The position numbers were made by a program, and so were the translations under genes. This document shows positions 2,131 through 55,608 of a DNA stretch of 64,000 nt, one piece after another. The stretch covers positions 43,011 to 107,010 of the forward strand of contig JACCGJ010001846.1 in NCBI GenBank assembly GCA_013407085.1, in the 5' to 3' direction. Numbering within the stretch: position 1 is the first letter of the stretch; each line of letters begins with the position of its first letter. This DNA comes from Atriophallophorus winterbourni (lineage: Eukaryota > Platyhelminthes > Trematoda > Plagiorchiida > Microphallidae). The notes under the pieces are model-generated. The model worked only from the letters and a program-made list of their open reading frames with translations. It was not told the DNA's origin and did not search any database.

Positions 2131-2215
2131 CCCTTGCACGGCTTTCAATTGCACACAACTAATGACCATTTTCGTACTGTTTGCACTCATTATGTAAGGA
2201 CAATACTATCAGGAC
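2130..2215 (-). repeat. Decayed family A hammerhead repeat
   Basis: On the minus strand the order of boxes matches the family A ribozyme repeats at 20.97 and 37.2 kb: a degraded core (ATAATGAG for CUGAUGAG), the loop GTGCAAACAGTAC, then CGAAA and a damaged helix III (ATGGT for CCGGT). The flanks also match (tracts like ACAGTAnnATCAGG on the plus strand). With these core changes it should be inactive. Confidence 0.55.
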
Positions 2216-2339
2216 CTTGTGAACCGGAACAGCGGAGAAATAGCCGACAAAAGGTTTCTACCTTTTGTTTAAAGCCACCATTGGGTTAGGCCTAGAACGC
2301 TATATATGCATATGTATACTAAATATGAGAAGTGAATAA

Positions 2340-12200: not shown

Positions 12201-15200
12201 TGCGGCAAGTTTAGTTCGTTCACGGCTTTGCATTGCATGCTGGTCTTCAAATTTCCACTAATCCAAACGCCGATGAAAGATAATACATGGCTTATTTTAG
12301 TTCTTTCTTCGGAAACCAGCATCAGGTCCATGGATCATGGAAGGCCGAAAATTGTATTTAAAATATCTACGCATCTTCAAAATGTCAGTGAATCTTTTCC
12401 CATACTATCTGATGAGCATTATAAGCTTAAACATCTACACTGAACGTAGAGGCACAGCAGATGGAGGATTTTTACATTTCGTCTCGCCAGAGCCTCCGTA
12501 TCAGAAGAAACCGTATACATGTAATGAATATGAAAATGCCTGTATATATTGCATGTACGCATGTGCAATAAATACCGCTTTACTGTATGAGAGCGAATAT
12601 TGGGCTGTTCAGGCAAGACACAAACCAATGCTTAATGTTTTACAACCAAAGCGAATTGGATGATAATAACGAGCATAGAAATATGGCCAATACGGCATAT
12701 TCACCCTTCTATGACAGAATTATCTAAGTCATATCGACAGAATAACAGTCATGCTAATGGCGGAACTCAAAAGTAAGCGGCGGACAAACTGTACCGGCGG
12801 TATGAAGACATTAGTTGTTGTTGTTGGCCTCCCCCGGTCGATATCGACCATGGCTGTACATCACTATCGCATGAGTTTTTCATGTTCCACAGGTTTTAGA
12901 ATGACTAAACAGTCCGATTCGGGAGGAACAATTTCTCCCGCAGCGCTTGCAACGATAAGCAGAACTCGGTCAATCGGCGTCAGTTGTACGTTGGCGGGGT
13001 GCTGTGCGTTCACCAGTTAAGAACCGAATCTGCTCCTCCCAGCTTGCAGACGACGCTTTACACAATGCCTTTAATGTGAGCGGTCAAGAGCAAGTTATTC
13101 CCAACTCGCGGGGTCAATGCCAAGAGCTTTCATATCTCTTCTGCAAACGGCATACAAATGATATTGACATCGATGGTGCACGAAAACAAATGGCTTGCAA
13201 TCAATCAATTTAGAGATGGTGGGGCGTCAGTTTCAATGTGGATGACTGGGAATGCTGCTCATGGACACTGGGCTCAAGCTGCAGAAGAACCAAACAAACT
13301 GTAGGGGGGCGGATTCTGATCAGGCTATTAAAATGGTAGGATATGACGATAATCTGTTTCGCACTACATCGTCAAGGGAAACTTTGACAGTAAGGAAGAC
13401 AAACAGTATACACAAAGGAAAATCGAATGAAAATGAAAAAGATTATACAAAAAATTCATGCGCTTGACAGAAAATAGTATATTACAAGTCAAAGATTGCT
13501 TACTTGTAACTGCCAATTCGTCAAACGTGGCCATTTGTTGTGTACAAGAGGAACTTGTATCATGTAATGCGTCAACCGAATGAGTACTCCTAGATCAATA
13601 ACGATCCAGGAACCAGGGTTCACCTCGAATGGATCCGAGTTTGGCGGATTAATACAAATCGATAGATGCGGGTCCGCGACAAGTTTCAGTGCACTCGATC
13701 TCCGACGCCCACAACTAGTGGAGGCGATCCGGTTGACGCGTTTCATGCCTGGCTGGGAACAGTACAAGAGTGAGCCAAGCAATTGGGGAGATCGATTTAA
13801 CGTGGAATCCGATGTGGTGACACGCACGAGTCCATGGAGACGGAGTGGATTTGCCCATTTGTTTTCTCGACCACCATTCGTTCCTAACCAAGCGAAGATG
13901 CCCCCAGTAAAATGTTTGCTTCCGTCGTTATGGACCGAATCCTTATCGAATGGAAGGAAAATAACAGATGGAGGCATCCACGAGCTGCTATCGTGTGCTG
14001 TGGCTATAACAATTTTTTTACTGCAGCGTCACATTTACAAAAGAAAATGCTATAACGATACGGTAGGTTACCAATAACTGCTAATGTTTAATAATGCAAT
14101 GTGTTAAAAGACACCTTTCGGATGGATTCCAAGAGAACTCTATCGAAAATCTTCCAATTCGTGTGAAGAAACGAATTATCATTTGAATAGTGTAGTGATG
14201 TCGAGAAGAAAACGGAGTAATTTCTTGCAGCATAATCTCGAACAGCTCATGGAATTAGAGTCCACATAAATTCACACGTGTAGGTTCTAGCATATAGTGA
14301 CGCGCATTGATATAACACACTAGTTCGTGAAAAAAATGAGCACCTGACACCAGATCAACAAATTTCTCGCTGTAAGTCACCATTCTCTAAACAAAACGCA
14401 CTCCAACGGTGTTCTTAGACCATGATAAAGTACCCACGTGTCAGAAATGATCGCAGAATCTGGTGCTATTGATACACACATCATTTGATATAAGAAATCA
14501 TACGATTGACTAGACAAAGCGTACATGAATACTTAGTTCACTTCTGTAAAGACCGTTGAAATTCCAGGGAAAAGGATGGATTATTCTGACGTTATTTTGG
14601 TAACGAGAAATCATAGTTTTGTCAATCGCTGCATGTAATCCTTCACTACCGATATCATTATTCTTATTAAGTAAGGAGAAGGAAATGCTCGTCAGTTGTC
14701 GTGGTCAACAATAAATGAAAAGTATCAGATTTCGAAAATTCAGACTTGATTTTATCAACCATGTCGCTCCGAAATCCGATCTGTCGACAGCCACGTACGT
14801 TGCACAAAGACAGATCGGCGTTCGAATGTCAGGTCACGGATACACATACCTAATTAGCGGTAACAGCAGCGAAACCGGTCGTATGCTTGTGTCCTGCTTT
14901 TCGAACGTCATATACTACTTATTAATAAAAATCTGGCTTCAAAATAACAGCCTAGAGCACAAAACCTTTGTAGAATTCCGTTCTTTGTGTTTCATCTCGT
15001 AGACTTATAGGAATCAAAGATCCGACCTTTTGTGGAATACTCAGCCTGAGGGAAACGGCGATGTTGTCAATCACCAGACACGGAAAACAGATGTAGAGGA
15101 AGTCCTCGAGAAATGACGCGAACTTTCATTTCAATTTTTTCTTTCAGCTTATTTAGCGTGCCACTTAAAGCCTATCGCCAACTGTACAGAAAAGAAAGCC

Positions 15201-17228
15201 TTCTACAATTATTTTTCTGTAATAAGAAAGCGGAGTCATGCCAAGCCCGCCACAGTGAAACCTCGAGAGATGCATTGTGAAAACTTAGTAGGGGAGTTCG
15301 TGGCTTTTGACGATCATACCAGAACGCTACCTTCATGAGCGACAGCATTACACCGGTAGCAAGTACTGAATACTTGATTGTCATAAAAATCATGACACAA
15401 TAAAATCCTAAAAAGATGGAAGAAGTTGTGAATTTAGAGACTAGGAAATCTATAGAACAGTTGACACAAGCAACCCGAAATGCGGTGCTGGCACCTCGAA
15501 GGGAACATGAATGCGACTGTCTATGCTATGAATCATAACTCTCATTCCTCGTCACTCCATTCGATAACAGACCAGATTATACAAACAATTCAAAAATTGG
15601 TTACAGATAAAGTGATCAGCCTACTGCTGTCTCGTATGTCATGAAACATGATTAACTTCATTTGTTCCCAAACCAGATTATTCGCGCGCATAAATCATCA
15701 GTAAAAAGTACCTTAGCTTATCATACTACATCTAAATGCCTCAGTCTGGCAAACAGAAACTAAATCGAAAATTCTATGAAAATGCCAAAAGAAAAAACAA
15801 TAAAATTATTCGAAAACCTATCGCGGAACAGGATGTGAGCCCCACAATATATTGGTCATTTAAATGCGCCTCGAGTGCTTGGCCAGGAATCGATTTGTGT
15901 ATCTGTATTGGAACATCGTAGTTCTTCATAAGAACCCTTTTCTATAGTGGCATAGAAGTATAACATTGTTTACCACATTACCACTGTTTAAAGGCTCACA
16001 GAACCTGATCTTACAGTCTCCACCCAATGACGGCAAACAGCCAGAAACCGGTAGTGGTGTGTAAGTGCGGGGGATGTGAGCACCTCAATATACAAAGAAA
16101 TAAATTATTCGAAAACCGTTCACGGACCAAGATGAATTCTAACAGTCATAGGGCATGCTTCCGACGGGGAGTGTTGGCCATAAACTGAGATGGGACACGA
16201 ACTAGAACAAGGCAGTCAAATAGACAATAAATGGTGACTAGTAGATACGTTGGATATCAGCCCAGAACGCGAAAAGATCGAAGTCAAACAATATCACAGC
16301 CTTGTATGCAGAGGAGAACGATTTTTAGGTGGATAAAGATGCTTATTTAACAAAATCACTACGCCAACCTTCACACCGGCTATACTGAAAAATACATGAT
16401 ACCCTACGAAAAAGCCATCGAATGATAAATGACAAAATTTGTGATAATCTGATGAATCAAAAATTAGAGCAACTTACTTGTGAAATTTCCGAAGGAACAA
16501 GGTGAACACAACTTCCCGGGGGGCGTAAGTCGTACACAAAACCCATATCTTTGAGATCATCATTGTACCTAGATTAAAGCGGGGTATAATATCGTTAAAT
16601 CCAAGAGAAAATAAACGATTTGCAAGATTGCATGCAATTTTATTTTAAAAATAAATGTAGGACGTTATCGAGAAGGGATTTTATCTATGGAAATAAACCT
16701 AAAATATTTAATTTAAGGCTCAAAATCTCGATAGTTAATCGTGGGCAAAGGAAAAGTATTCATTCGTTGATCGTACTAAACCAAATAAACTCTCAACCTA
16801 CTTTCCGCAGATACGAATAATAGCACGGTAAATTAACATAAACTAATCAAGAAATCAACAGAACCATGGATGTAAAAGGTGGTACATGATCATCTATGGC
16901 GGACATTGACAGGACGAAGCCAACAACAACACATTAATGTTCACTGTAACCACATTTCCTATTTTCTTTCTGGCACAGGCTACGCTCTTTTGCGGCTTGG
17001 AGATTTGCATTAGCCCACGATGAACCACGAAAATGTTCTCGTCGATCCATTCAGGTTTGTTCAACGAGGACTTCCAGAATATGGTGACGTTCACTATCAC
17101 TTTGCAAGATGTCAATTAATCTATCTTGCAAGAGAAATCGAAATCAAAGCTTCATAACAATAAAACACGACGCTCGCGTATGAAGAAAAATAATTGTAAA
17201 TCGGCATTATCATTCTAGTGTTTTGTCA

Positions 17229-17278
<50 letters not shown>

Positions 17279-20200
17279 GGCTGAAGTGTACCAACGAGAC
17301 AAACTACATTTTAAAAGCGACGGTCAACCAACAGTAATGGTTTAACTTCGCATGAACTTCAGTAGCAAATGAACTGTATCATAGTGAAAAACGGTTCTGT
17401 TGGATTTTTATGCTTGCTAATCATATATAAGTAAAAACGGTTGAAAATAAAATTTAGAACGATTGCAAGTAATGTATTGTGCTGCTCACATCCCCATCAC
17501 TTACACACCACTACCGGTTTCTGGCTGTTTGCCGTCATCAGGTGGAGACAGTAAGATCAGGTTCAGTGAGCCTTGAACCTTGCAAGTAAACTTTGAATGT
17601 GACTGCCGCGTGAAAATAGTGATATCAGATGTGAATAAAGCATTCTCGTTAAGTGCCGAATGTTTACGTACCACGGAACTTTTTTCACCGCGTTGACGAT
17701 CCATTTTTGCAACTGTTCGACGGTGACCAATGGTTGTACACATAAATGATAACGGTTCAATTTAACTTTCCGGCTAAAAGGTCTCGTCTTGGAAGTTTTA
17801 TCGTGGTAACCGCTTTTCGCCGTCGGGCGAAGTTGCAAGCCTCTCGTTAACAAGTGTTCGGATAAGGTGGTGAAATGGGCGGTTGGCAAAGGAAACCGCT
17901 CGACCTTGATGAACGAAAGATAGCACAGCGATATTTTCAGAAATCAATGTTATTCCGTCCTGTATTTCGCAAGGACGGAGATAAACGAAATCAGATTATG
18001 CGTGGGCTATAACGGAATATCGTGACACATGACCAGCAATAGGTATAATACTCACAGACGAATAAAAGATGAAGGTAGTAAATGGAAGCTCATACTTCAA
18101 TAACCAATAAACAGACAAACAACAACACTTAGCAAACAACGAATTGCTGCTTTTGCTATGTTATTACTGTATTCATTTCGGGAGAGAGGGTAACAATTGA
18201 CACACAATATAGGCAATAAGGCACCGTTATCAGCCAAAGGAATAAGAGAACATGATATGTGCATTAGATATTCACCATTCAACGCCCAACGAAAGATCAT
18301 GGTCCTACCATATAAGAAAAATATTAACAAATTTTGTACCTGCTACCGGTCTTCAAATGCAAATTTTATTCAGTTACGAATCCCTAGACGCAGCATTTCG
18401 CAAACTTCGACCAAAACAAACGTATGCAATATGCAAATGCACAAAAAGCAGCTTGTTTTTGTAGTTTCACTGCATGCGATTTTTTGGTTTTTTTGTTTTT
18501 TATGTAAAATAATACCGAATAAAAAAATTATGACACACATAATAAAATACACTGGGGCGCCACTGACTTCGGTTTGTAGCCATATCGCGTAAGGTTTCCA
18601 GCCAACTATTAGGTGGAGCTTTTGGACCCCACCCAGGCAAACGAATACGCCCAACTGAGCCTAGCGCTACGGTGAGTTTCTTCATCCCAACGCGCCACGT
18701 CATGGACTGGCCACCCGATCTTTTCTCCCAGCTTCTGTCAGGCTCTGCGAATAAGGCGCGGTACGGTAAACGGTGAGTAGGCATTCTTAATACATGTCCC
18801 AACCATCGCAAACGAGCAAGCATCAGCATTTCTCTCAGTCCGTGGCCACCTGGTCCTAACACCCGCTTGCAGACATCTATATTTGTAACACGATGCTGCC
18901 ACCGAATGCGAGCAATCTAAGCAGGCAGGCACGGGTATCAAAAACAGAAAGCCGACGGACATCTTCCGCTCGGATAGACAGGTTTCGCAGCCATAAAGGA
19001 GTGTAGCACGCACAACTGCGTTGTACACTCGGCCTTTAGTATGGAGTGAAACATCGCGTCGGCGCCACAGGTGGCGAAGGTTAGCAAACGCTGCACCCGC
19101 TTTGCGAACACGATGTGAGATCTCGTCCCCGACACAACCTCCAGCGGAGATACAACTGCCAAGGTAAACAAAGCTGTCGACCAATTCAAGATTGACATCG
19201 CACACAGTTAGGTTGTTATAAGATCAAAGTTTACCATGATGAGGGCACTACAAATTCATATTCAACGAAAACGTATTTCAGATCTTAATGTCATCACTTA
19301 ATCTAACTTTCAGATAATTTCTAACTGCCAAACACAACTCCAGAGAAAAATATATTTCAAACTGATAGGTATGCTAAAACTTGGTATTACGTGAAAAAAG
19401 TTTGAGACAAATGAGATGTAAAAAAAGATAAATAAGCTATAAAGTTTAACATTTATACTTATTCGTCGTCAGATAAAACGTTTGATGGTCGAAAAAAGAA
19501 CATCACTCACCAATTCTAACGCCAAAATTAGCTTTTTAACTAAGGCTGAGATAAACTTCTTTTCGCTGAGGAATTTCAAAGCGGTCATTCCGTTGTTGTC
19601 GGCTTCAAAGAACGTAAGCGATTTGTATGACGAACTGTTAACATCATCGAGTGGGTACAATTTGCTGAATCGCTCCTGTGAAAAATAGTCAAAAACTCGC
19701 GATATGGAGAGGTAACAAAAGTTTACAAGCATCACAAATAACAGTCTTCCCATTCATAGAATGTACCGCGAAACCGAAGCATACAAGTAACATTTAAACA
19801 AATGACCTAGAGTAGGCGATAAATTACCTAAGCATATCGACCACTTAAACATGTCGAAACCTTAAATACGGGGAGATTTTGTTGGTGGTGGCCTCCTTCA
19901 GTCGATGTCGACCATGGCTGTGTATCATAAGTGAATGTTAATTTCATACTCCGCGGGTTTTCGAATCACTAAACAGTCCGATTCGAGAGTGACAATCTCT
20001 CCTGTAGCGCTCACAGCGATAGACAGAACTCCGGTGATCGGCGTCAGTTGCACGCCGTAATTTGCGTTCAGCAGTAAAGAGCTGTATCTGCTCCTCCACA
20101 GCATGCAGACGATGCTTTATACTATGCCTCTAAATTGAGCGGTCAAGAGCAAGTTCTTCCCAACTCGTTGGGTCAGTGCTTAGAGCTCCCGTATCTCTTT

Positions 20201-23200
20201 TACAAAAGTCTTTGTACCGAAAGAGCGGTCTTCCACAAGGTCAACTTCCTGATTTCAACGCACAATAGAGTAGATCTTTCGGAATTTGACCAATTATTAT
20301 TCTGCTCACATGACCCTACCTCCGCAGGCGGTGCTGTCGTAGTAAGGTGAAGGTGCTCTGTAGACCAGCTTTAGAAAGCACATCAGCACGCTCTCTTCAT
20401 TTGTAATCATTTTGTGTCATGGTTCCCATAAGTGATAAAACAGTTGCAAATTGTTTGAGAGAGAGACTGTGGGAGTAGTTTTGTAGCTGATAAACTACAT
20501 TTGATTGGACACATATGGAACAATGTGCCACGTGGCTACATACTTGAATTGCCATTGCGACTGCTAGGAGAAAAATGTCGGTAGACAAAAACCCAGAAGT
20601 TGCTGTGAACGAGGCTCATGACCTTCAATAGAGATTGTCTGTATCAGCCATATCACCGGACAATTAGCGGAAAACCGTTTGCACCTTTGCCAGGAACATG
20701 TTTTTGCATAAAGTTTTCCAAGCATCGCATTTTACATAATAATATAACATTGCCGGAAGAAAATAAACTAATTAAATCTCTATTAAAAATTCAAATCAGA
20801 ATAATATGGTATATGAAAACAGCTAGGGAACAGTCGGCTATGACAAGTGCTTTGAACGCTTTGAACATGCAAAACAAGCTTCGGTAGAGAAAGGGTATAC
20901 AAACGAGCAGGAAATTAGATCAAGTATCAAAATATTCATTTGCATGCTTTTCCGTCACAAAACGCCCCAAGACCGGTTTCGTGCTGTTTGCACTCATCAG
21001 GTAGGGACAGTACGATCAGGATCCGCATGGAGGAATGGCAAACAAGGAGCGCTTGTATGCGACTGTTGGATAAGGCTGGTACGACCAACCTGTTCAATTA
21101 CATGTGTCCAACACGTTTAATGGGGTTAAACCCATAACAATGAAACAATTTATTCATTTGCATGCTTTTCCGTCACAAAGATCAAGTATCATTTTTCAAC
21201 TAATTTTATTATGGCATGCAAATAAACAAACCACCGTAGGTACTAAGACCGTCGATGGCGAGGCGATTATGATCTACATAAAACCACAAGATTTGGCATG
21301 TGAAATGGAGGAAAATTGAGTGCATGCAAACCGGGGGGTCATGCATACCAAAGTCCATCTTTTGCAGTCCCAAGCGCTAGACTGCGGATTTGTCCGCTCT
21401 GTCCACCTTAGTGACTTTGGTGCCAGCTTTGACACGGAGACGTTCCTCTAAAACTTCTGTTCCACACCTATGCATCATTATCACGGCATCACATGTACAA
21501 TGCAAAACTTGTTTGTGTTTACGCCACTTTGTTCGCCTATTTCTTCGGACCCACGGTTCAGGTCGGAATGCGTGACCTTCACCTCATCAATGTGATTTAT
21601 ATTGAGTACTGGGCAAACGGACACATCTGGCTGCAGGTATCCACCACTTTTTGCTCGTTGTTTTTCTGATTGTGACACCACTATAAATCAAGTGTGGGAT
21701 GCGAGCTCGTCCAATTTAGGCTGCTTTGTTGTAAATAATCTTGAACTTGGCTGGGACTGGAGCATCGAGTAAAATCACAAGACAAGCAAAGTTGCGTAAA
21801 TGTGCTTGTCTTGCCAGCCACCATCGAATAGATAACTCCTCCATGTCAACCGGACGGTTTATACGGCCGGAATAAGCCTACACGAAATACAATTAATTTT
21901 TGTTTTTGTCCATCAAGTACCCAAACAGGCATCGAGACCGCGTCTTTCATTTTGCGCCCCCAGTTACAGAAGCACTGGAAATCATATTACAGATGTATAC
22001 TTTGCATAGGACAAAGTACAATCGACTCAAAAAGCTAGCAGAATATTTATAATCGTTGAATTAAAGGATAAGACTATATGGACGCGCAAAAGCTACCTGA
22101 AAGGGGTCCCAAATATTGCGTTGCAGTTTCAAGAGGATGTCAAATAAGCACAAAGTATAAGGGTAATCTTCGTTTCAAAGAAAAACAAATAGTCTGTAAC
22201 CCCGAGCCCAAAAATTAGAAATGTGAGAGCAAGCCAAAGAGAAACCAATTGTTCACAACATTTAGCTGGCAAAAATCGAGGAGGATCTACTGCACAAAGC
22301 GAAACTAAAGGATCGCTTTTGCGAAGCAGACGAACTGGCAAAATAACATGAAATCTGTGGGCTAGATACCGAAGTACGGAAGGAATCTAAGATGTGAAGT
22401 AATCCGAAGGCGTAATTGACGAGCGTTGTGAGGTCCGACCTGCCATCCAGGATCGAGAGGGCATGCAGCAAGAGTATTAGAAATCCCTCCGGGAGAGATA
22501 AAGGTGAAATTAACTTCATGGTAATAACTAGAATGTACAACCTTGAGTGCCGTAAGCGGGAAATCGTTTTATAATGAATGCAAGCGCAGGAAGGTGAGCA
22601 GTAGCAGCAGGTGAAGGCTCGCGTTAATTTCATTTATACAGTACGCACATTGTATTCTCAGGCAACTTTATATTCTGCTTTCGTTGAGGAATGATACATT
22701 GTTGTCCAAGGGTCTTGTCTCTGACATGCATTGCTAGGATGCAATGAGAAGTGAATTAATTTTTTTAATTACCAACACATAATGAAGTGTTGCAGGAATA
22801 CAACGAAGGACACAAAAGTATTAAATTATTAAAAAATGAAATTGACTTAACAACATAAACGAAATACTAGCAAACAAGAATCCTGCTTTATGGTTCAGCC
22901 CAGACTGAGCCCGAATGATTTAATATATGAATAGATTATGCAATTTTACAGTGTTTCACTTTTAGATACTGCTTTTAACCGCTTCATAAAACAGACAACT
23001 ACGGTAAAATCTGAAACAAATTTTGCGGACCTTATAGAAACGCTGCAGAACCGGCAATAATCCACTAGACAATAGTTCGTAGGGCGTCACTTGATTCATC
23101 GAAGCAAAAATATGATCCACCGTGTGGGGCATCTGGATGCTAGATTGGCTGTTATCGAGAGCAAGTTGAATTCGTTCCTTCACTTGATCAAGAACACACA

Positions 23201-26200
23201 CAGCTGGCGAAATGTGTTTCGATGAGACGGTATCCATTTGGTTATAGGTAATTATTCTGGCAAGCGATTTAGCTGCATAGCTAGCTGTTGACCGTATAGC
23301 GCGCAGACGATTTTCACGGTGTCTAATGGAGAAAATGTATACAGATAGTAAATTAATACTCAATAGGCTACTACAGATAATATATAAGTAGTTTAAATAT
23401 AAAATAAATTACTCGAATATGTTTAATGCAAAAATACGACTAGTTCGGCGTAATACGGTCCACGAGAGAATAGACACTCAATAGCAGTGACGCGAGATTA
23501 ACTGATATAAATAGATTCATGGTTATGCACAGTTTTAATAGAGACTATATCTCATGTTTGCGATGTACATCAATAGACAAAACAGACCCCATGAAGCTAA
23601 TGCCAGTAGGTAATTAAGTAAGAAATCAAAAGTCTGGACCCAGACCAAGTGCTGCACAGACAGTGAATTCGCGTCGTCAAAGATACAGGCAGGTTGCTCA
23701 TGCCTAGACAGATGTATAAAATACGAAAATGACAGAGAGACTACAGCGTGCTTCTGCATGCAGATAAGCACATTCGGCAAATCAATTTAGCACCGTGTTA
23801 CCTGTGCACCGCACAAACAACCCTCACCTTGTAAGAACTGCATTTCATAAGTGGAATGATATACAAGCAAATACTATCAGGGCGCAAAAGGACCAAAATG
23901 CCCAACACATGAAGGCCCTATTAGCATTGATAAAGTCCATGGGCCCAAAAGCAGCGAAATTTCGTATATTGCATAAATCAATTAGCAAAATAAATGACCT
24001 GTAAAGAGTTATACGAGTACAAATTTAGGCTAACAAGGAATAAATCGTAAGTAAAAAAGTAGTGCCTGTGCTGTTTGATTGGAAATCGGCTCACCTGAAT
24101 TTCAATTCTTGTCGCTGAATAGATGTCAAATTGTCCAAAGCTTTGGTGAGTCTGATAGAAGCGGGAAAATAATGAAAATTAGCAAGTGGAAACGGTTGAA
24201 CATGTTAAACATGGGGCTACCAACCTTTGGTAGCCGGAATTTTTCGTCAGTGGTCCACTCTGGTAGATCACACGATTGCGATTATCCATCACACGAACAC
24301 CTCCAAATTTCGTCGAATTACAAATAATTTTACCCCCGTTCACGGCAGTAGGTTTATTTGGTACACTATGAACAGATTTCTGCAATTTCCGCAAATCAGC
24401 CAACCAGTTGTTAATTTGATTGTCATCAATGCTTGCCGCATGTGTATTTCCATTGTCATTGGAAACGCCACCCCCAGAAGCTGGATTCGAACAACTGGCA
24501 CATTCCGGATGCCCACAAAATTGCACTACTTCGCCGTTCGTTAGCGTGAATCGTTTGTTCGGCATTCCGAAAATACCTCTAGTGAACGTAATACAAAGTC
24601 CATCAATGGAAGCGGAGAGGCGGAGTGGTCCAGCATTCAAAAACTCCGGTTTCCCATCATGATTAGTCCTCTCACTCTCGCTACTCTTCGGGTTAATATT
24701 CTCTTCATCTAATGGATTACCATGTGCTGGGATGGAATCAATATTCATTATGGAACCAGGGAGCTCAAGTTTCTGATTAACCATATCTGATTTTGACGTG
24801 TTGGATGATGAGACACCCAATAGCTTACAATTCGAAGACAAGCAAAAACCAGGTACATTTGAAATGGACGTATTGCCAGTACCACATGTACACGAGAGCT
24901 CGAATCGATCAGGTTCATCCACGGAAAGCCAATTGAACTTATAAGTGAAGTTTTCATCATCCAGCCTCAGGTGACAGTTCTCCGATTCAACAGGCTGCCC
25001 ATTATTTACATCCGAGGTGACGGCAGTTCCATCGTGACCAGTCGTTTGTTTAGATTCCTGATTTCCAGAAAAACGTCTAATTGAGGAAGAGGTCTCGGTT
25101 TTTATACAATTCATTAAGCTTCCTTCTCGTTTATCGCACTTTGACATTTTTATACCCGGATTAGAACCACTATGAACGCGAGAGGATGAACGTTGCTTTT
25201 TAGGTGATGGTCCGGAAGCATGCGGTTTGAGTGAGTTGTCAGCGTTAGCTTCATTACTCGAAGTCGAAGAGGATATTCTTTTGAGATTTAACGGCAACAT
25301 TCCGTAAAACATGTTGCGCACATCAGTGATTATCGGAGCAACTGTCTGCCATAGTTCAGCAGCTAGTTCTAGATGGAACAAAAAATAAATGTGAAACACT
25401 TTTCCACCGACATTCACGGACAATACGAAATCCATACATCAAGCACCTACCTGGTTTCTTGATGGGAGTTGTATTCGGAAAGATTTGCAAAACGACAATG
25501 TTTTCGACGCGTTCAGCGGCAATCCCTTGGTCCTCTTGATTTGCTAGTAAAGAGTAACCGTTAACACCGATGTCGTCCGGGTTAGTGATATTCTTCTCGC
25601 GACTGATCAAGTATACATCAGGTAGCGTAGACCCCTTTGAACTCCTATCCCAAGTAAACCACAAAGCCGCGAATTCATGAAACATGAGAAACGATTTTGA
25701 GTTTGGGCGTATCAAATTCCATTCACCAAACAGATACGACTGCATGTAGCCAAGCTCGTAGATGCATTGAAAATGTGATTCCTGAATGTTTGAAAATGGC
25801 ACAATAGCACGAACATCATCGGGAAAAATAAAATGTATAGGAAGCGTGGTCAATGCCAACAAGAATTACCTTTATTTTGTTTCAAAAATTTTCAAAAATG
25901 TGATCAACTCAAAATCACTTAACTTTTAGATTAATATGATTTTAATTCACTGGAATATGGCCATTTGAGAGTGAAAATTCTGGGGGATGTGAGCACCAGA
26001 ATACTTTAGATGCTTCTAATTTTAAGAACCGACATCATTTCAATATTAACCACTTGGAAAAAAAGTGAAATTATAGACCGGGACTTTATAGTTGATCCAG
26101 TCCAAACCATTAACCAACGGTAAACATATAGTAAAAATCCTTCACATTTAAAATCATCAATCCAAGCGAAATCAAGACATGATCGAAAGAAACTCACCTC

Positions 26201-29200
26201 CGCAGTAATTTCGGGTAGATGGATCTAAATTTCAAAAGTAAGCGGATTAAGTTGTCAGAAATGACATGATTGGCAAATGCAGTGAGCGCGATTATTGAGA
26301 ACTTGAGAACATGAATAGTATATTAAGTAATATCATCGCTATATTGAAACTAACAAATAGCAGCTCTGCAGATTATCGCGTAAAATGTTAAGTCAATGGT
26401 GTCGACTAGTTTTTTCAGAATCTTCCATTGGTAATAATGTCTAATGACTTCTAACTCATGCATATACCGTAAGGAGCTTATACGAGCATCGCAAGGGAAT
26501 CAAAATATTTTCAGTCTCATACCAAAGGTGTATCAAAGTGAACCGGCTCTGTTTATTTGAAGCGAAGGTCATTCATGTGCAAAAACGTGATTTCCGTCGC
26601 TCCCCTTTTGTTAGTTTATAACACAGTGTTTAGCACAATCAAGCCAACTCATTTAAATGCTGAATACCGCGAGACTGGATAGACCCACTATTTCCAAGCT
26701 AAATTGATTCGCAAAAGTTTGGTGGTAACCAGGATATCAAAATTGAACCTACGAGCCTTTCAAGATGGATTCTATGAACCGTAAGCATCTCTCAAAACAC
26801 TTGGCTAAAGTTGTTTAAGGGAAAACATTTCAAATCTAATAGTAAATCGTTTTAATCCCATTAGACGGTGATTCAGAAAAGTGAATGCGATGAAGGAGTT
26901 CTCAAGCCTGTATTCTTACTGCGAAAAGGGGACTGTCGAATGGGATCCATTCAAACAGTGCGACCTTTGCTCTGTCACTCAAAACGTTCCCAACAACTGC
27001 TCGACCAGAAACCGTGGCGTCGTCATCAGTGGACAAGCTTAGATAGTGTGACTTGCGTAGGTTCGAAGGATGAGACAATCGTGTAACTGATCGAGAATTN
27101 NNNNNNNNNNNNNNNNNNNNNNNNNNNNNNNNNNNNNNNNNNNNNNNNNNNNNNNNNNNNNNNNNNNNNNNNNNNNNNNNNNNNNNNNNNNNNNNNNNNN
27201 NNNNNNNNNNNNNNNNNNNNNNNNNNNNNNNNNNNNNNNNNNNNNNNNNNNNNNNNNNNNNNNNNNNNNNNNNNNNNNNNNNNNNNNNNNNNNNNNNNNN
27301 NNNNNNNNNNNNNNNNNNNNNNNNNNNNNNNNNNNNNNNNNNNNNNNNNNNNNNNNNNNNNNNNNNNNNNNNNNNNNNNNNNNNNNNNNNNNNNNNNNNN
27401 NNNNNNNNNNNNNNNNNNNNNNNNNNNNNNNNNNNNNNNNNNNNNNNNNNNNNNNNNNNNNNNNNNNNNNNNNNNNNNNNNNNNNNNNNNNNNNNNNNNN
27501 NNNNNNNNNNNNNNNNNNNNNNNNNNNNNNNNNNNNNNNNNNNNNNNNNNNNNNNNNNNNNNNNNNNNNNNNNNNNNNNNNNNNNNNNNNNNNNNNNNNN
27601 NNNNNNNNNNNNNNNNNNNNNNNNNNNNNNNNNNNNNNNNNNNNNNNNNNNNNNNNNNNNNNNNNNNNNNNNNNNNNNNNNNNNNNNNNNNNNNNNNNNN
27701 NNNNNNNNNNNNNNNNNNNNNNNNNNNNNNNNNNNNNNNNNNNNNNNNNNNNNNNNNNNNNNNNNNNNNNNNNNNNNNNNNNNNNNNNNNNNNNNNNNNN
27801 NNNNNNNNNNNNNNNNNNNNNNNNNNNNNNNNNNNNNNNNNNNNNNNNNNNNNNNNNNNNNNNNNNNNNNNNNNNNNNNNNNNNNNNNNNNNNNNNNNNN
27901 NNNNNNNNNNNNNNNNNNNNNNNNNNNNNNNNNNNNNNNNNNNNNNNNNNNNNNNNNNNNNNNNNNNNNNNNNNNNNNNNNNNNNNNNNNNNNNNNNNNN
28001 NNNNNNNNNNNNNNNNNNNNNNNNNNNNNNNNNNNNNNNNNNNNNNNNNNNNNNNNNNNNNNNNNNNNNNNNNNNNNNNNNNNNNNNNNNNNNNNNNNNA
28101 TTCGGTTGTTTCTAGGTACTTACGTAATGTTAAATAGAGTCTTGGGCGGGGAACATGGTACAACCTTAAACCCAAGACTATTTACACGCCTAGCTTCTAC
28201 CGTTTAATAAAGATATCCATAGAGGGTATTTCTATGCGACCGGTCGTTAGCGGGATGTGATCCTTTACATAAAAGTTAGCTGGGCTCTTTGCCCGATTGT
28301 TAAAATCATTGTTTGACATTACCGAATGAATTAAGAATGCATTCGACTGCGCACGACGTATACAGCCCGCAACCGTTGAGCACGATGAGAGTAGGGTTAG
28401 TTTTGACGTGAGTGCTTTGTTCACGATGTTGATACAACGAGTGCGGTTTAAATAGCTACACGGACACTGGAGTCAGATGTCACATTGATTGGTCTTACAA
28501 ATGTAAGTGTTCAGTAAATTACTAACGGTGTATCAAATTGTCTAAATGAGCCGCATCTTGGTGAGTAATGGGTTCGTCGATATGAAAAATGACATGCAGA
28601 TCATTTTGGGGGCGATTTTATGGCAGGTTTCAAATCGTCACTCGCGTCTTCAAATCTAAAACAGACTCGGATTGTTTAGCCAGATAACGGCTTATGTGAT
28701 AAACAGAGAAATTTCTGGATTTTGCTCTACTTAAATAAGGGATGATATATTGGTTTCGTGTGGAAGGGAATGATCTGCAGACAATAAGCACCCTGTGCAC
28801 TAGGTGTTCAAGATAGGATGGAATGACTCCTATCAATCTGTCGCATTCACATATCGTCTTACATCCACAACGCTGCAATGACTTCAACACCTCTTTTGAT
28901 TACCAGAAACTTCTTTTCCAAAAGAAGGGATGCACAAATCATGAAAAACTAAACCGTCAGCTACACCAGGTGGGATGGGACGAGAATGAAGGCAAATAAC
29001 ACATTAAAGCCGGCGAATTTTAAGATTCCACAGCTCTACTACTTGTGTTTGTAAAATGAAGTGTACAGATTGCTTCGGTATTTATACCGAGGATTCTCTC
29101 AGGTGCTTTATACTATGATAAAAGAAAACAAGAAGCTCATTTGATGACGTTCACATGCTGTAATCACAGACTCAACATGAGCTAAACACACGCTGGGCAC

Positions 29201-32200
29201 TAAAAATTAGACATATTGTTGCGTAGCATTAATCCATTACATTTAACGCCTACGCACCCAAGCAGTTAAAATAAGCACGGAATACCTGCACGAAACAAAA
29301 TAGACGTGGCTGAAACCCTCACAGTATGTCACACGACGCAGCGGCGGACAAATACCCATAACGGCTGGAATTCTGCTTCATTTGTTATTATTTTCACAAT
29401 TATTTAGCTTTGCCATCAGTTGTTACACTTCTAGCCAGTGTCAATTGACCTTGACCGATTTCACGCCACGATGGGCAAACAGACAAATTGACCTTTGCCT
29501 GAATGGCTTGACATCCTTAGGATATTAATGGACTGTTTAGTCGTACGACCAATTAGGGGTGGTGGTTGGTTCGTTATTCTGACTAATGACATTTACCCAA
29601 ATGATATTTTGTCATTCCCACGAGACGTGAAACACTGTAGGCGTACTATAGGCTGTTTAGCGGTAAGGTCAAATCACTGGTGGGGGTTTGACTACTACTT
29701 AATTATGTTCCCTGTCTGACGAAGCTTCTGTGTCAGAAGTGAAACGTTACCCAAAACTGCTCAAACCGATTGCATTCAAGTGCATATGTACGGTTTTCGC
29801 AAGAAGAATTAAAGCAGAGCTGACATTTCGATTATCTTCGAATAACGCTTTTCATTCTTCTTTTTTGACTGATGAGGCTCAAGAATTAGAAAGGAAACGT
29901 TACTCCAAACTGTTTTAACCGATTGCTCAGAACGTTAATTTCATGATGCTGACTGTTCGCTCGGTCTGAAACATTTTCTGAAGAATTATCTCAAAACCGC
30001 AGATATGCACCGATTCATGATAAGAGCTGTGGAATTCACGGTCGATCTTGGCGTAAATTCTGCAAGGCTCAAGAAGTTTATAGTTTCAATACAAGCAGAG
30101 CACAGTTTTCTGAATAAATGAACCGATGGCAAAGCGGATAATAGTAAAATCTGAGTATATGCATAATGACAGACACGTGACAAGCTTACGCGTGTTGTTT
30201 CGAGATAACTTGGCAAACACACGACCGAGGTATTCATCGGTCCGGTGTGTGAGGCTTCGTCAGATTGCGATGGGGATTCAGCCTGTTTTGTGTCATGCGG
30301 CACCAAACCATTCGTTTCAGTACACGTTGCGATCCGCGATTGGAGGAGTTCAGGAATGCCATAACGTTGCATCCAGTCTACAAGACCGGGTATGCTGATC
30401 AATGTCAGTATGATGGTCAGCACTAATAACAGTTCTTCAGATGAGCCCTGCAACACAAAAGAGAAAAAGATTTGGTTGGTAATGAATAGAAGTGAGAACT
30501 TGAATTCCAGACACAGAAACCTTAGATAAACACTTCACAGAGTAGACGTGAGTAAGCGAATTCAGGAAACAAACTCGACATAGGCTCTGCAAATCTTGCA
30601 ATCGATCCTCAGGATGTAACAACAAGGACAACTGGATAAAACAACGTTATTAATATTATTCTTTGCCACGGTGCCGCAGAATTTCGAGGTAAACTACTGC
30701 GTGTATTCATAATCTGCTTCTTACGTAAAAACCATCGTGGATGTGCATCTTGAAAATTCTGTATCATCTCAAGAGACAGGTTGCTGTTTCACAAAGAATG
30801 AGTGTATTTTTCGCTTAATGTCCAAATGTCGAATAGTCGTGTATTTTACGGGACAGCTACGTCGATTTTAAGCTTTTCAATTGTTTTTAATGACAGCCTA
30901 TTTTCACAAGGCTCTGGTCCTCAAGAGCTCATCATCAAATTAATGAGTCATTCAACCAACAATCCAAGTTCTGGTTTTCAAAGCTAAGTTGTGATCCGTT
31001 AAGGAAAAATGCAGACTCCTTTTCGGTTGTTCCCTAATCTCTATATTCCTAATGAGGATACAACGTTACGACCAAATGAAACCCAATTGACCTAAGCGGC
31101 CTACGAATAAGCTTGAGGTAGCGATGTTCAATAAAATCAGATATTCATCATTCTCCGAAATAGCCTTGTGCGCTGAGCTTTACGCCAGTTGATTATCAAC
31201 TTTTGAGCCGTTTCTGCACTATTTCATTCTTTTAATTTCACATAAGTATAATGGACTAACAAAGTTATCCTTGAATGCCACTGTTGAGTGCTTGACCAAG
31301 AATCACATTGTGATTCTATGTTTGAACATCGCGGTTCGTTGTACGAATCCTATGTAACAGTGGCAGTTTACCACTTATCCACTGTTTCAAGGCTCACTGA
31401 ACCTAATCTTACAGTCTCCACCTGATGACGACAAACAGCCAGAAACCGGTAGTGGAGTGTGATTTCGGGGGATGTGAGCAACACATCACTTTGCAGCTTG
31501 ACGTTTCGGCACTAGTTGCTCGCAGGTAAATGTATGCATGCATGAAATGACAAGTCTGGATATAAGCAGTACCGCAGTCGTAGATTGCACGTAGACTAAA
31601 ATACTATCAGGTGGCCGAGACAGCTCGCAACCTTTGGCAAATAAAGTTAGCATGGCACATCTGTGAGCTTTTAAATATTACCTGGCTCAAACCATGGGCC
31701 AACATATCGACTAATTCACGACCAAAATTGGCGTTTTCCGTCGACGATGCTGTTTCTTTTTGCATCTGATAGAGAACTTTGAATCCGGTCCTTGTGCGAA
31801 TCGAACGACAAACTAGTTGTAATACGCGCAATCTGTCGTGGATGAATAATTAGGACAAGAAAACAATAGATAGAAAACAAAAGCAAGGGAATGAGCACAT
31901 AAATAAATTAGAAAAATATAAAACAAGATCAACCGCTAGGAAGCATCTAGGCACAAAGAAACGAAGGCTCAATACTACAGAACTAATTTTAGTAGGCATG
32001 ACTCAATCCCACCTAATTGCTCATACGAATCTTACATAGTTAAGATTTGTCGGCTTGGGGAGTTAACACATACGTGACAAAAAGAACACGAAGATTGGAA
32101 GCGCTGGACTCGAGTTTCGCTCTTATTTAAGCTCATCAGCAGTGCATATCCACTGCCTCGGTGGGACTTGTACTCCCGAACATCACCATTGTAATTGAAA

Positions 32201-35200: not shown

Positions 35201-38200
35201 TAGTTGACACTAGATCCAGAAAGTTGTTGTAACGGTTTTCTCGAATCTGTGGCGAAGCGGCCATGTAGCGCTAGCGATTTCTATATCTTATTTTAGTGTA
35301 GTCAACCAAATTAGTTTTAATTGTTAATTTATGACGCGGTGTCAGCTTCCTACAAATACAATCAGTCGCATAGACCCGCCTAGCAAATCTTTTGGTTCTT
35401 CAGCAATTAGGAAAAAGTAGAATGGTGGGGGAAGGTTTACAGAATTTGAAACTATGTAATAATGGCGAGAGTTTTTTAGAATAGATCAAATGAAAGGTAC
35501 ATATTGAGATCGATAGCGTCATTGATGAATCTAGTACAGTGCTGTTTCAATTAAAAATATGACAATTTTCTATGTGATCTTACAGAAGCATATAAACCGT
35601 GAGTGAGATATGTTGTGAAAAAGGCTTACACAGCTACTAACAATTTGAATGTGTCATGTTAAACGAGACATTGTACTATTAAACTCAAAATCACTAACAG
35701 AAATTAGAGCATACATGAGATAATCCTGCGTGGCGGTTATGTACTAAGATCAATGTAATTGCAAATACACCATGAATATCTTATCACAGAGTTCTTGATA
35801 TTTAAATAAGCTCAGCGAATAATCGTAATTGCAAATTCATAAGAAGACTCTGCGTACCAATGCTTGCGCGATTTTGTATACTATTGGCAAGCCAATAGTG
35901 AAAGCGATCTGATGCGATCGCCACATCATCCGCCAAGCCCAGGCGATCAAACCCTTGGCGAGCAGCGTGGAAACAATTGTGGTACTCTGGGTTCGTCAAC
36001 ATATGAGCATTGCAGGATGAACTGCTTGGAGGTTTGGATTTCCCCAAAATCGACTGAACTTTTAAAGAGAAACCCTGCGTTCGAGATTTCGAGGCAGAAG
36101 AACCAGGTTGACAACACGCACAACCTTCCGGATTCTCCGTAGAGCCATTGCATGCATGGATTGCATTCATTTTGTTCAGAGAGGAAGAAGTCTCATCGGT
36201 CGAAATGTTCTGATTGATTGCGTCCATGGAACGCTGATCAGTTACCAGTACAAGTGAAATGAGCCCATCAAGCAAATGAATCGAAGGAAGTAAAATAGCA
36301 TCTCTGGAATGGAAAATATTTCGAGCTTGGAAGCAGAAGAATTATACCCAAATTATCATAGGATTATTGATATCAATTGAAATTCTTTCTTCATGGCACT
36401 GTAGGCTATAGTAAACACCGAAAGATTTTGGTTCAACAGTTATATTGTTACCGAATTGTTAAAAAGTCGTATCACAATATGAAAATTTTAATCCGCAAAT
36501 AGACTAATGAAATGGAAAGAAAAATGCGTACATAGATTGAAATGTGTTCTGTGGTTTGCATTTTTAGCGTTTCCTAAGCATCGGCAGCGCAACTAATACA
36601 CACTAACCAGTAAGTTGAATCCCCTAATACTGGACATATAGGAATAAACATTTATTTCATTAAATCAACCAAACAAAAGGTAGAGTACATAACTGACGAA
36701 ATGGAAAGGCAATACCAAACGCTGGAAATAGTTGGTTGGCAAGATAATCAAGTGTGCAATAAAATGAAGAAGCTCATAACAGCATTAGGTTTAGTGGGTA
36801 GCCAGCTGCGCCGATGTGCAACAAAAAGATCCAAATTACAAGTGGTTAAAAACTGTATAAAATATAGGTTCAAACCAAATTTTGGGGCGTGAATGTTGTT
36901 CATATTTTTTAAGCCATATACTTTTGCAACCGTCTTTTAAACAAACGAAGATACGAATTGCACGCGGCGAAACTACAAAAAAGCATTTGTAAATCTTATT
37001 TGCTTGAATTCATATGCGTCTACGATGATCTTTTTAGCTAACTTCATATACAGGCTAAAACATTGAAAGATTGAAATAAGACATGTAATATTACTTAGAT
37101 TCGCATCCCACTCGGCATTATGAGTGCACCTAATGTCTCATGAAAAATTATGATCGGCGAATTTTAACATTACTACGAACTACTTAACTAGAAACAAAAT
37201 ATTCATTTGCATGCTTTTCCGTCACACACACCTCACGACCGGTTTCGGGCTGTTTGCACTCATCAGGTAGAGATAGTAAGACCAGGATCAGCATGCGCTT
37301 GAAACAATGGAGGAATAGTAAACAAGTAGCGCTTGTATGTCACTGTTGGATAAGGTTGGTACGACCAACCTGTTCAATCAGCCGTATCCAACAGTAGCAT
37401 ACAAGCGCTCCTTGTTTACCATTCCTCCACTGTTTCAAGCGCATGCGGATCCTGATCTTACTGTCCCTACCTGATGAGTGCAAACAGCATGGAACCGGTC
37501 GTGGGGTGTGTGTGACGGAAAAGCATGCAAATGAATATTTCGTTTCATGGTTATGGGTTTAACCCCATCAAACATGTATTTGGACACGTGATTGTCAGGT
37601 TGGTCGTACTAGCTTTATCCAACAGTAAAATACAAGCGCTCCTTGTTTACTTAAATAAAAGTTATTGAGAAGACAGCTAAGAAGTTATTGTTTCCTTATG
37701 ATCAACGGAATTGTATTGTAGAACCTTCAGGTAGGTGATAAAAATTGCGTAATCCTTAGTATTAATGTTATCCACTAAAAATATAGGAGCAGTTTTGAAT
37801 TAAAAATAATATGAAATCATTAAAAATGTCAAGCCTCCGTAATATGTTATGAAAAAGCATAAACATGAAGTTGCTTACTCATGCACACCTAATATGGTGT
37901 CGGATATTATTTCCTGTCTGCCAGAAAGTTTAATGTAGGACAATATGCTGCTGAGGACTGAACTGGTCACCAAAATATTTAGCGCACATGGTTGATTCTG
38001 GCAGAGAATGAGTATTATATCGACCAGCAACAATGCCATCGCGCCAGAAAATTTGTACGATGAGGACACGTCTTTTGATCGTTGATCTGTAACAGGAAAA
38101 TAATTATACAAATCGTCAATAGAAAATGTTATTAAAACTGCTAACCGGTTGCAATAATTTCGAACGCAAATAATAAAACCCACCAGATGCAGAATATTTT

Positions 38201-40424: not shown

Positions 40425-40439
40425 TTCAATCTAGTAGGT

Positions 40440-49479: not shown

Positions 49480-52392
49480 AATGTTTGTGGTTGGTAACCA
49501 ACGTTAAGGGACTGCCATAGATCAACTTGTGGAATCGTTTGACCATGGTTTTGTTTAGCTGGAGTCAAGGATTGTCAAGCAAACATGATCAGTCATTCTC
49601 TTTCATCAAAGAATTGTGAAGAATTACAGCACCAACACACCATATTCAGATTCATCGGCTGCCAAGACGATCGACAGCTTCTAAATAATGTGTCAACTAC
49701 ATGTTTTATGTCAACAACGATTTTAGCTGTATAAAAGCTGTTTCGCATTTTCTTGACCAACTCCATACGATATATTTTTGGAGAAGTCGATTAAACGGTG
49801 ATAGCAGAGCGTAAAGTGATGGCAGGAATGCCTTGTGATATTTTTCACAAATCTTTTCGTGCTCAGTTCAAGGTCATTTAACCGTATGAGTTCAGTTGCA
49901 ATATCCGAAATATTTTCACGAAACAAATGAAGCTACTTGTTATTATTTATAGCAAAAGACAGCAAACACTTTTGTAAGCGAATTGTTTCAAGACAGTTGG
50001 CTTTACAGACGTTCCCAGGATCTAATCCATATCAATTCGTGGATTTTCACTGCTGTTGAGCCCTAATGAGATCGAAACTCGAGCCAAGTGCTTCCTATAA
50101 GTGTACATTCCTTTGAAATCTGAAGCAACACGGTACTGATGAATAGTGTATAAATAAAAAATGACTTTTCCGAAAAAATAATTGAATAACTACAAATGTT
50201 GATATTGAGCGACGAAATATCCGGACAAATCACATGTTTAAGAACAACGCGTATCTCATTAGAAATATCTACGGCTGAATACAGGCAACACATGAAATAG
50301 AATAACCGAAAACTGAACAAACCCAAGAATGATCTCAGTGATGCAATGTATTGCGGGGCTTGCATCTGCTGGATTGATTGCATGTTGTCAGGGTGACATG
50401 GGGTTTAATCGAAAATAAAACCAAAGAATTTTGCTGAATTCATGTAGAACTGAAATTTCTTCAGGCGATGGAGTAACCCCATTTTAGCTATCTGCTTCAA
50501 CGTCTGGTTAATGCGACCATCGAGGTTTCAATCGAAGGAGCCGAAAATGAGTAGATCGTTCAGGTATGCGACCACACCTTGGATGCCAGACATAATAATG
50601 TCAATCGATTGCTGAACAACGGTTGGAGCAGTCTTCTACCAAACGAAAGACGTTGATGTTGTTTAGATGGTGTTTGCCGAGCTTGTATAGTTGTTGTTGG
50701 ACGTTGTGAGTTTTAATCGTTTTCAGTTCTCGTTAACCAGGTGCAAGTTCGATCTGCAGATAAGCGTCACCTAGGTTCAGCTTTGCGAAGTACGATACCC
50801 GTAAAGCATTGTAAACAAATTATCTACGACAGGCAATGAAAATTAGTGTGTTTTCGAAGCGGCATTCAATTAGTGGAAAAATCGACTCAGACTCGGATCC
50901 ATTCGGCTTTCTAACGACAACGATTGGTGCTGGCCAGGCAGAGTATGTTTCTGGAACCAGAAAACTTTGATCTTGTAACCTTTGAAGTTCAGCTTCGACT
51001 TGTGGTAGGAATGCGTACGGCACTGGTCGTTTCGTTCCCAATATAGGTTTTGTATCTTTTTTAGATAAAGAATATCTCGCAAATTCTTACATTTTCAAAA
51101 TTTGTTTGTAAACATGGTCGCATGTTCTAGCATTAACTCGTCTCGCTTTTTCTGGAGTGTTTCGGTTGCTCGTACCGGATTGAAAAATTTCCCTGATTGG
51201 AAGGCGAGCCAAATCGAAAAGATAGAAACAATCTAGGCCAAACCGTTTGAGTTTTGAATTATACACATCACACTTGAGATTCCGAATAAGATTTGACTTG
51301 GCAGCTGTCTAGTCAGCTGTAGAGAACCACGCAGGTACCGGTTGCGCTACGTGTAGTAGTTTTGAGTTCTGGAGAACCTAGTTTCCGCCAGAGTTTATGG
51401 AAAACGAACGTGATGTCCGATTCAGTGTCCAACTGCAATCGAACAGATTGACCGTTGATCTGGACCATTGCAAATTTTCTCCGATCTTCTACGTTCAGTT
51501 GAAACGTGGACAAAAGATTGAGATACTTCTTTGAAGACTTGCGTCAAAGCTTCCAGGGACCAATAATTTGTTGTCCAAAACCATTTTTGTAATCAACGAT
51601 GTTGAATCGTGGACATCGATGTTGCTTGAACAGGCTGAATATGACGAAATGCCAAGCGCCTCATAGCCAACACACAGAAAGAAGGTTTTTATCCTAACGA
51701 AGGTGGAGTTGTTTTTTGGTAATCAGGTTGATTCGGGCCAAGACAGCGTATCTTCCTTTAAGTTAAATATACTGCATGTTTGCATGTTCTCCATATTGGA
51801 ACATAGGCGAATTCAGTTGGCCATTTACTAATCAAATATACTCTTAACCAATGGCTTGGAGAGCGAGTGAGCGGTCCTGTTCCGATCGATTGAAGTGCCG
51901 CGTCCGGATATCATTAACACTGAAAGACTGGAGACTGTATATGAATATTAGCTATTTAAATTGATCATCCGTTACTAAACCAATCCTAAACCGCTCGTAC
52001 TCTCTGTGAACAATAAGCACGTAAGTTGAAAAATCGTCGCATTCCTACATAACCAGTATTAGGTATCCTAACATGTATAAACAGCGATCATCAGTCTCCA
52101 AATAATTGTTCCCGTGTTTCGACTGTTTGTGTTAATGAACGGTCACGTAGATTTGTGCTACCATAAAGCTAAATTATTCTTCGATTTCACTGGGACGAAG
52201 CTTGCGAAGTAGGAGTCTAAATGTCAACGGATCGTCTTGTACGGCAAAATCTACTCGGAACAAATCTGAATACCTACGGAACAACGTCTCAAACGTGATA
52301 TAAGCCTCAGTGTCGAAATTGAATCCATGAATACTATTAGCGATACCATCAACGGACGGTGGAGCATCGATGCTCGCTAGAGTACCTGGCAT
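49480..52392 (-). mobile_element. Decayed Ty3/Gypsy retrotransposon
   Basis: Right to left: a gag-like N-terminal frame (FETLFRRYSDLFRVDF, 52.3 kb); protease with LDTESDITFV for the normal D-T-G/S (51.43 kb); RT start VEAELQRLQDQSFLVPETYS and PAPIVVVRKPNG (50.95 kb); RT active site YLND for YxDD (50.56 kb); the link LLSPFNRLLQKYIVWSWSRK (49.77 kb); and the RNase H opening AADESEYGV (49.66 kb). Stops are frequent and both protease and RT have altered catalytic residues. No LTRs were found. Confidence 0.8.
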
Positions 52393-55293: not shown

Positions 55294-55608
55294 TTGTGGG
55301 ATACTCTACGTATGGTAAATGATGTTTTATACACATACAACGACGAGATATTTGAAACTTCAGTGAGGCTTACGATCTATAAGAACAAATCAAAAAACCC
55401 AAAATCAATTTTAAAGCCCCGCTATTCTAACGAACTGGTTGAAGCCGATGCGTTGGGTCCACTTCCAGAGACAGCACGTGAAAAGCGATGCATTTTATTG
55501 ATGGTAGAACATTTCACAAATTGGTGCGAGGCAGAACCAGGCGAATGTATTGATGCTGCAACAACAGCAAAGGTTTTGTTCTCTACTTGGATATCTAGAT
55601 CGGGCTAG
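55294..55608 (+). mobile_element. Gypsy integrase fragment of a different lineage
   Basis: VEADALGPLPETAREKRCIL and MVEHFTNWCEAEP are the first catalytic strand region of a Gypsy integrase (normally D-x-x-GP...xDxFTKW). It is followed at once by the protease region of another Gypsy element, which is out of order for one polyprotein. It is therefore a separate remnant fused by insertion or recombination near 55605. Confidence 0.7.

Follow-up and report, generated by a model that had tools for sequence, protein, structure and literature searches.

A 64,000-nucleotide (nt) stretch of the trematode Atriophallophorus winterbourni (contig JACCGJ010001846.1, positions 43,011 to 107,010; hereafter the window) carries, on its minus strand at 20965..21006, a hammerhead ribozyme motif inside a dispersed repeat, here called the A element. 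This locus raises the question of which kind of element the motif belongs to and how that element entered the DNA. The motif is very probably a type I hammerhead belonging to a metazoan retrozyme that is short (unit of 218-231 nt), non-coding and devoid of long terminal repeats (non-LTR). This reading rests on a hammerhead beyond chance, a terminal repeat identical at 29 of 29 positions, a perfect flanking duplication, periods of 218 and 231 nt, and permuted copy ends.

The hammerhead of copy A1

Direct reading of the minus strand from 21006 to 20965 gave CCCTAC CTGATGA GTGC AAACA GCAC GAAA CCGG TC / TTGGGG, in which CCCTAC and TTGGGG are the 5′ and 3′ strands of helix I and C3 lies at 21000. 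The CTGATGA and GAAA boxes are both present and the site is GUC; these elements, reported on this strand in the preliminary description, were confirmed by direct reading and by a covariance model. The perfect helix II that it reported, closed by AAACA, was found with four of four pairs (GTGC-AAACA-GCAC). Helix III is reduced to a single closing pair, A15.1-U16.1, with CCGG between. Helix I forms five of six inner and three of six outer pairs, and position 1.1/2.1, adjoining the cleavage site, is a U.C mismatch in A1 and a G-C pair in the two other copies, A2 and A3. The motif thus has the features that define type I: a CUGANGA and GAAA core, an NUH site and three helices open at helix I. Cleavage is predicted between 20971 and 20970, and the earlier placement of the site at 20971 was correct.

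The Rfam type I model (RF00163) matched A1 with 26.7 bits and an E value of 0.029, computed over 64 kb, both strands and 4227 families. The expected covariance match was therefore obtained, short of the gathering score of 34, which is the curators' cut-off and stands outside the biochemical definition of a hammerhead. Given this score, the C.U pair at 2.1/1.1 and the incomplete helix I, the earlier wording "consensus-perfect" was too strong.

The chance level was estimated with a descriptor (CTGANGA; at least three of four helix II pairs; GAAA; NUH site; at least five of six helix I pairs) that was written after the sequence had been seen, though generic in form. It matched the window four times, with C3 at 21000, 17541, 37266 and 32139, all on the minus strand, and found nothing in 100 second-order Markov simulated windows of 62 kb. 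Six further modules were too altered for it (C3 at 37471+, 16024+, 31422+, 2193- and 50053+, and the module at 14837-14897+). The hammerheads of the window exceed chance. When viral contigs were scanned for the exact pattern of the A hammerhead, no match was returned, and a blastn search of A1 against phage records gave none either.

Copy A1 as a single insertion

Copy A1 spans 250 nt (20930..21179, minus strand) and was delimited by homology to the copies near 37 kb, by its terminal repeats and by a flanking duplication. Its 3′ end (20933..20961, minus strand) and its 5′ end (21151..21179, minus strand) are identical at 29 of 29 positions; TTCATTTGCATGCTTTTCCGTCACAAA, 27 nt of this repeat, is found at 20935 and 21153 on one strand. 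The repeat, only 29 nt long, is the overlap of the unit. Immediately outside the element, direct reading showed the same target-site duplication, GATCAAGTATCA, on the left (20918..20929) and on the right (21180..21191). In a flank test, direct repeats were scored between 2000 random pairs of 38-nt windows with mismatches penalised; the A1 duplication, perfect over 12-13 base pairs (bp), reached 13 when one further base was counted, whereas no random pair scored above 10. Because the terminal repeat lies inside the flanking duplication, 20930-21179 is a single insertion of 1.15 units with a period of 218.

The sequence is continuous across the cleavage site in A1, as it is in A3, and the copied RNA was therefore either ligated or never cut. 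Since A1 has one hammerhead only, it cannot release a full unit or circle on its own and is a dead end as an insertion.

The A units are non-coding, the longest ATG open reading frame (ORF) within A1 encoding 58 amino acids (aa) antisense to the ribozyme and 30 aa on the ribozyme strand, with no ORF above 47 aa overlapping A2 or A3. The unit, of 218 and 231 nt with a GC content of 0.46, falls within the range of metazoan non-LTR retrozymes (about 150-450 bp, GC below 50%), and the duplication of 12-13 bp exceeds the 4 bp surpassed by retrozyme target-site duplications, when present, according to passages of PMC7229834.

Permuted copies and an inverted dimer

The window contains three A copies. 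The repeats noted earlier at 37231 and, mutated, at 37465 are both real and adjoin each other. Copy A2 (37191..37378, minus strand; identified by inverted-repeat comparison and alignment) forms the left arm of an inverted dimer, and its module at 37221-37282, with C3 at 37266, retains an intact core, three of four helix II pairs and five of six helix I pairs. Copy A3 (37379..37650, plus strand; identified by direct-repeat comparison and by RF00163 at 23.7 bits) is longer than one unit, about 1.2 units, and carries its module at 37455-37516, with C3 at 37471 and GAAA changed to GGAA. Within A3, the stretch 37385-37419 is repeated at 37616-37650 with a period of 231. The arms 37191-37358 and 37379-37546, separated by 20 nt, show 90% complementarity along their 168 nt, and both copies contain a 14-nt stretch missing from A1. 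A match to the MIR844 family at 37304-37433 (53.1 bits for a cut-off of 70, both strands) was rejected, as it corresponds to the A2/A3 inverted dimer and to no microRNA.

On a doubled A1 unit, numbered so that the base immediately following the cleavage site is phase 1, A1 extends over phases 10-261, A2 over 91-272 and A3 over 111-367. A1 and A3 are thus longer than one unit and have different starting phases, the outcome expected if the template was a circle or a multimer.

The outer ends of the dimer are flanked by a possible target-site duplication, TACTTAACTA on the left (37181..37190) and TACTTAAATA on the right (37648..37657), the first 3 nt of the latter being common to the element end. 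They match at nine of ten positions, a level that 0.36% of some 5000 randomly chosen pairs of sites attain when offsets up to 4 nt are allowed; the ends of the dimer were chosen after inspection, and the duplication is moderately supported at most.

Twin priming or snap-back copying yields such an arrangement, an antisense arm on the left joined to a sense arm on the right, within one insertion. Because the arms are so arranged, their phases overlap, the joints at phases 91 and 111 both lie in a predicted hairpin of the unit (TGTTGGA/TCCAACA) and a 10-bp duplication (9/10) possibly flanks them, we tentatively suggest, as a doubtful but specific possibility, that 37191-37650 is one insertion: a retrozyme RNA, circular or multimeric, would have been copied by target-primed reverse transcription, with twin priming or snap-back giving the two arms. 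The dimer may also have arisen by later recombination of two copies. A literature text search found no paper joining hammerhead ribozyme, retrotransposon and inverted dimer, and twin priming was absent from the eight best-ranked, out of 56, papers on circular RNA, retrotransposon and hammerhead. If the one-insertion origin were true, the dimer and the permuted over-length ends of A1 would link animal retrozymes to target-primed reverse transcription of the LINE (long interspersed nuclear element) or PLE (Penelope-like element) type round a circle, a step left open by a review.

Related hammerhead families and relics

Other hammerhead modules are dispersed in the window. In family B, copy B1 (15786..16134, plus strand) has the same plan as A1 and A3, with its module at 16008-16069 and terminal repeats at 15795-15835 and 16094-16134 that are 80% identical with a period of 299. 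Copy B2 (17471..17577, minus strand; module 17496-17557) was found by its descriptor match at 17541 and by a model built from seven modules, and copy B3 (31271..31492, plus strand; module 31406-31467) by repeat comparison and the same model. In all three copies (C3 at 16024+, 17541- and 31422+) the first pair of helix II is a C.A and the site reads GUA, and their source probably carried both, since they are common to the three. A non-standard hammerhead thus seems to have multiplied in this family. The core of B1 is lost (CCAATGA), and B3 retains just two of four helix II pairs.

The mutated copy noted earlier at 2190 is likewise real: this decayed copy, C (2146..2225, minus strand; module 2148-2209), has C3 at 2193 and CTGATGA changed to ATAATGA, and was placed by the seven-module alignment and model. 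Within 2146-2521, copy C is oriented opposite to a tail-like segment of B type at 2471-2521, perhaps forming a second inverted joint.

A separate family, D, has its core and GUC intact in one copy (32084..32153, minus strand), which matched the descriptor and the Rfam HH9 model (31.9 bits, cut-off 52). A second, decayed copy (50037..50098, plus strand), 80% identical to the first over 60 nt, has the core CTGTTGA and the site GCC. The intact copy lies between the minus-strand ORFs 29986-30534 and 33567-34151, on the same strand, maybe parts of one ankyrin-repeat gene.

Seven modules could be aligned without gaps over 62 nt; the rows of this alignment are related and few. In the hammerhead register, 80.7% of the cells pair, against a shuffled mean of 74.9 and with one of 500 shuffles as high, and sliding the registers by 1-3 columns left 27-47% of the cells paired. 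The covariation score was 0.227, equalled by four of 500 shuffles. The covariance model built from these modules finds the seven by construction, and it retrieved one new relic, F (14837..14897, plus strand; 18.7 bits, E 0.017), with the decayed core CTAATTA and a wholly different helix I (CATAC/GTATG). Relic F is embedded in a long stretch resembling a hairpin, GGATACACATAC...GTATGCTTGTGTCC, beyond which lie GTTCGAA and TTCGAAC. Weaker matches of the model at 17350 and 1310 (E 0.24 and 1.3) were taken as chance, and Rfam matches to mir-1277, mir-3688 and mir-297 were rejected as TA runs.

Another repeat, E, is present on the plus strand at 10909-10974, 29713-29773 and 29866-29926, with CTGACGA/CTGATGA/CCGACGA boxes and (G/A)AAACGTTAC. 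A 7-bp hairpin is found in two of its three copies, and two copies are 153 nt apart. No Rfam match to repeat E appeared in the window scan, nor for the two copies scanned separately; we take it to resemble the minimal hammerhead of Penelope-like elements. The folding z-scores of its three copies range from -1.77 to 0.83.

Proposed cycle and alternative explanations

The retrozyme-like dispersed unit of the preliminary description is supported by the unit length, the element ends and their overlap, the target-site duplication, the permuted copies and the further hammerhead families and relics (B, D and F). Based on these features, a cycle can be proposed in which a source locus or a read-through transcript holding at least two head-to-tail units would be transcribed, each hammerhead would cut its own unit at GUC, and a host RNA ligase would join the 5′-OH and cyclic-phosphate ends into a circle of about 220-230 nt. 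A reverse transcriptase (RT) supplied by an autonomous retroelement would then start from a nick in the genomic target and copy this circle, or an uncut multimer, for slightly more than one unit; after second-strand synthesis, the ends of the new copy would overlap and a target-site duplication of about 10-12 bp would flank it. The hammerhead, the unit length, the over-unit copies, the permuted ends, the A1 duplication and the intact cleavage-site sequence are the parts of this proposed cycle that can be read from the DNA; we infer the cleavage, the formation of a circle and the enzyme used. Regarding transcription, comparison with the RNA polymerase III (pol III) box consensus gave nothing convincing: no A box was present, and only a single weak match resembled a B box. 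Retrozymes seem to be without promoters, and their repeats to lack a conserved motif betraying the machinery used, according to passages of PMC7761336.

Several results weigh against the retrozyme assignment. Besides the RF00163 score of A1, Rfam scans of short stretches gave no hammerhead match for B1, B2 and B3 or for the decayed copy of family D (50053+), and none convincing for A2, whose only hammerhead match was HH9 (16.2 bits, E 0.36 in a 481-base stretch). Among the seven modules, pairs changed on both sides number four, a count reached by 128 of 500 shuffles. Among A1, the inverted dimer and B1, only A1 has a clear-cut duplication: the stricter flank test scored the dimer duplication 7, as it did the 7-nt candidate of B1, and 169 of 2000 random pairs reach 7. 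Tandem Repeats Finder detected no tandem array or full dimer of the A unit in the window, and head-to-tail repetition is partial only, as in A1 and A3.

Folding is also unfavorable to the assignment, within an energy model that disregards tertiary contacts. The hammerhead fold of the A1 monomer reaches -6.9 kcal/mol against a minimum free energy (MFE) of -16.6, and the double hammerhead of a paired A1 dimer -22.9 against a dimer MFE of -38.0. The circular folds of A1, A3 and B1 were matched in stability by 11, 84 and 30 of 100 shuffles. For B2, the double hammerhead (-32.3) comes close to the dimer optimum (-33.3). As ACCGGU is palindromic, helix III would have one pair in a monomer and possibly six in a dimer; according to passages of PMC7761336, amphibian motifs without clear helix III require dimers, and most invertebrate ones cleave as monomers. 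The paired fraction of the circles, which should be high in a metazoan non-LTR retrozyme, is 61% in A1 and A3 and 54% in B1, and shuffles do as well. Folding energy was set aside as evidence, the z-scores (-0.88 to 0.56 for the A1 unit, its 71-nt stretch and nine modules) saying little in either direction.

Three other origins would account for part of these observations. Type I hammerheads are also found in Penelope-like elements, whose ends are tandem or partly tandem, and the minimal helix III of A would suit them, so that the copies could be fragments of the pseudo-LTR of such an element rather than a free-standing retrozyme. This is improbable, as A1 is a whole insertion within its target-site duplication, with just 1.15 units inside and no room for an RT between its ends; no GIY-YIG domain was detected by Pfam in the 20 ORFs scanned, out of 50 listed of at least 120 aa, six of which are runs of N. 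We judge it still less likely that A resembles a short interspersed element (SINE), comparable to SMalpha of schistosomes, with pol III as its polymerase and a LINE carrying its linear RNA to new sites; the hammerhead would then do no more than trim transcripts. A 12-bp duplication is compatible with LINE use, and ORFs with LINE-type RT and endonuclease domains are present in the window. A terminal overlap and permuted ends are, however, hard to obtain from a linear RNA with fixed ends, and the pol III boxes fail as described above. Passages of PMC8490949 describe SMalpha, from trematodes, as SINE-like and as carrying a type I hammerhead; it may itself be a retrozyme, which would make the distinction partly one of name.

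Trematodes and newts also have satellite DNA made of hammerhead repeats (passages of PMC6155905), and the copies might in principle be scraps of a decayed tandem array spread by recombination, without retrotransposition. The perfect A1 duplication, the dispersed copies and the failure of Tandem Repeats Finder to detect an array of the A unit in the window make this origin hardly credible, the least probable of the three. We therefore retain the non-LTR retrozyme as the best explanation. The route of animal retrozymes back into DNA is unsettled, and the anatomy of the insertions is the interesting part of the A element: clean single insertions flanked by duplications, permuted ends that run past one unit and the inverted dimer preserve traces of how the element was inserted.

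Other coding features of the window

Pfam identified, in addition to the LINE-type domains, Gypsy RNase H and integrase domains among the ORFs of the window. A Gypsy-type element at 55508-58819 (plus strand) carries RT, RNase H and integrase domains, spread over ORFs in more than one frame. A protein search with the Gypsy pol ORF gave 6192 matches among 7981 scored candidates, of which 120 were listed; among the matches listed with an organism named, 30 of 32 were from flatworms, namely Dicrocoelium (up to 63% identity over 81% of the query), Schistosoma, Trichobilharzia, Heterobilharzia, Hymenolepis, Spirometra and Sparganum. The top match by E value was from the nematode Trichuris (46%), and a mite was also among the matches listed. 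Retroelements can move between hosts. On the minus strand, the ORFs at 24179-40430 are maybe exons of one gene, which might encode a HECTD1-like ligase; one of them has ankyrin repeats by Pfam, and a protein search with this exon gave one match, an ankyrin-repeat protein.

Comparison with known systems

Metazoan non-LTR retrozymes were defined by Cervera and de la Pena in 2020 (PMC7229834). As that paper describes them, the A element resembles them in its type I hammerhead, a unit within about 170-400 nt, a GC content below 50%, the lack of a coding region and a duplication above 4 bp. It apparently has no LTR, and their head-to-tail units are matched in part. It differs from the coral example given there, which ranges from dimers to 62-mers, in that the A copies hold 1.15-1.2 units. 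It further differs from metazoan retrozymes in the single closing pair of helix III and in that one A locus is an inverted dimer.

Active hammerheads are known in the W-elements of Schistosoma (passages of PMC8490949). Like SMalpha and the W-elements of Schistosoma mansoni, the A element has a type I hammerhead in a short repeat of a flatworm genome, and like one W25.2 copy, for which a flanking duplication was suggested, A1 is flanked by a duplication. By length, the SMalpha-like W36.2_W001, at 335 bp, differs from the A unit.

Penelope-like elements with hammerheads are treated in PMC11167929 and PMC6155905. The A element shares with them type I architecture, a weak or absent helix III and partial-tandem ends (passages of PMC11167929 and PMC7761336) but, unlike them, its units have no coding region or RT. 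The Rfam HH9 likeness concerns family D only, where the match at 32139 has an intact core and falls below the cut-off, with a second decayed copy in the window. Platyhelminths are already named among the hosts of retrozyme-like repeats in passages of PMC7229834, and the A element is therefore an addition to a known kind.
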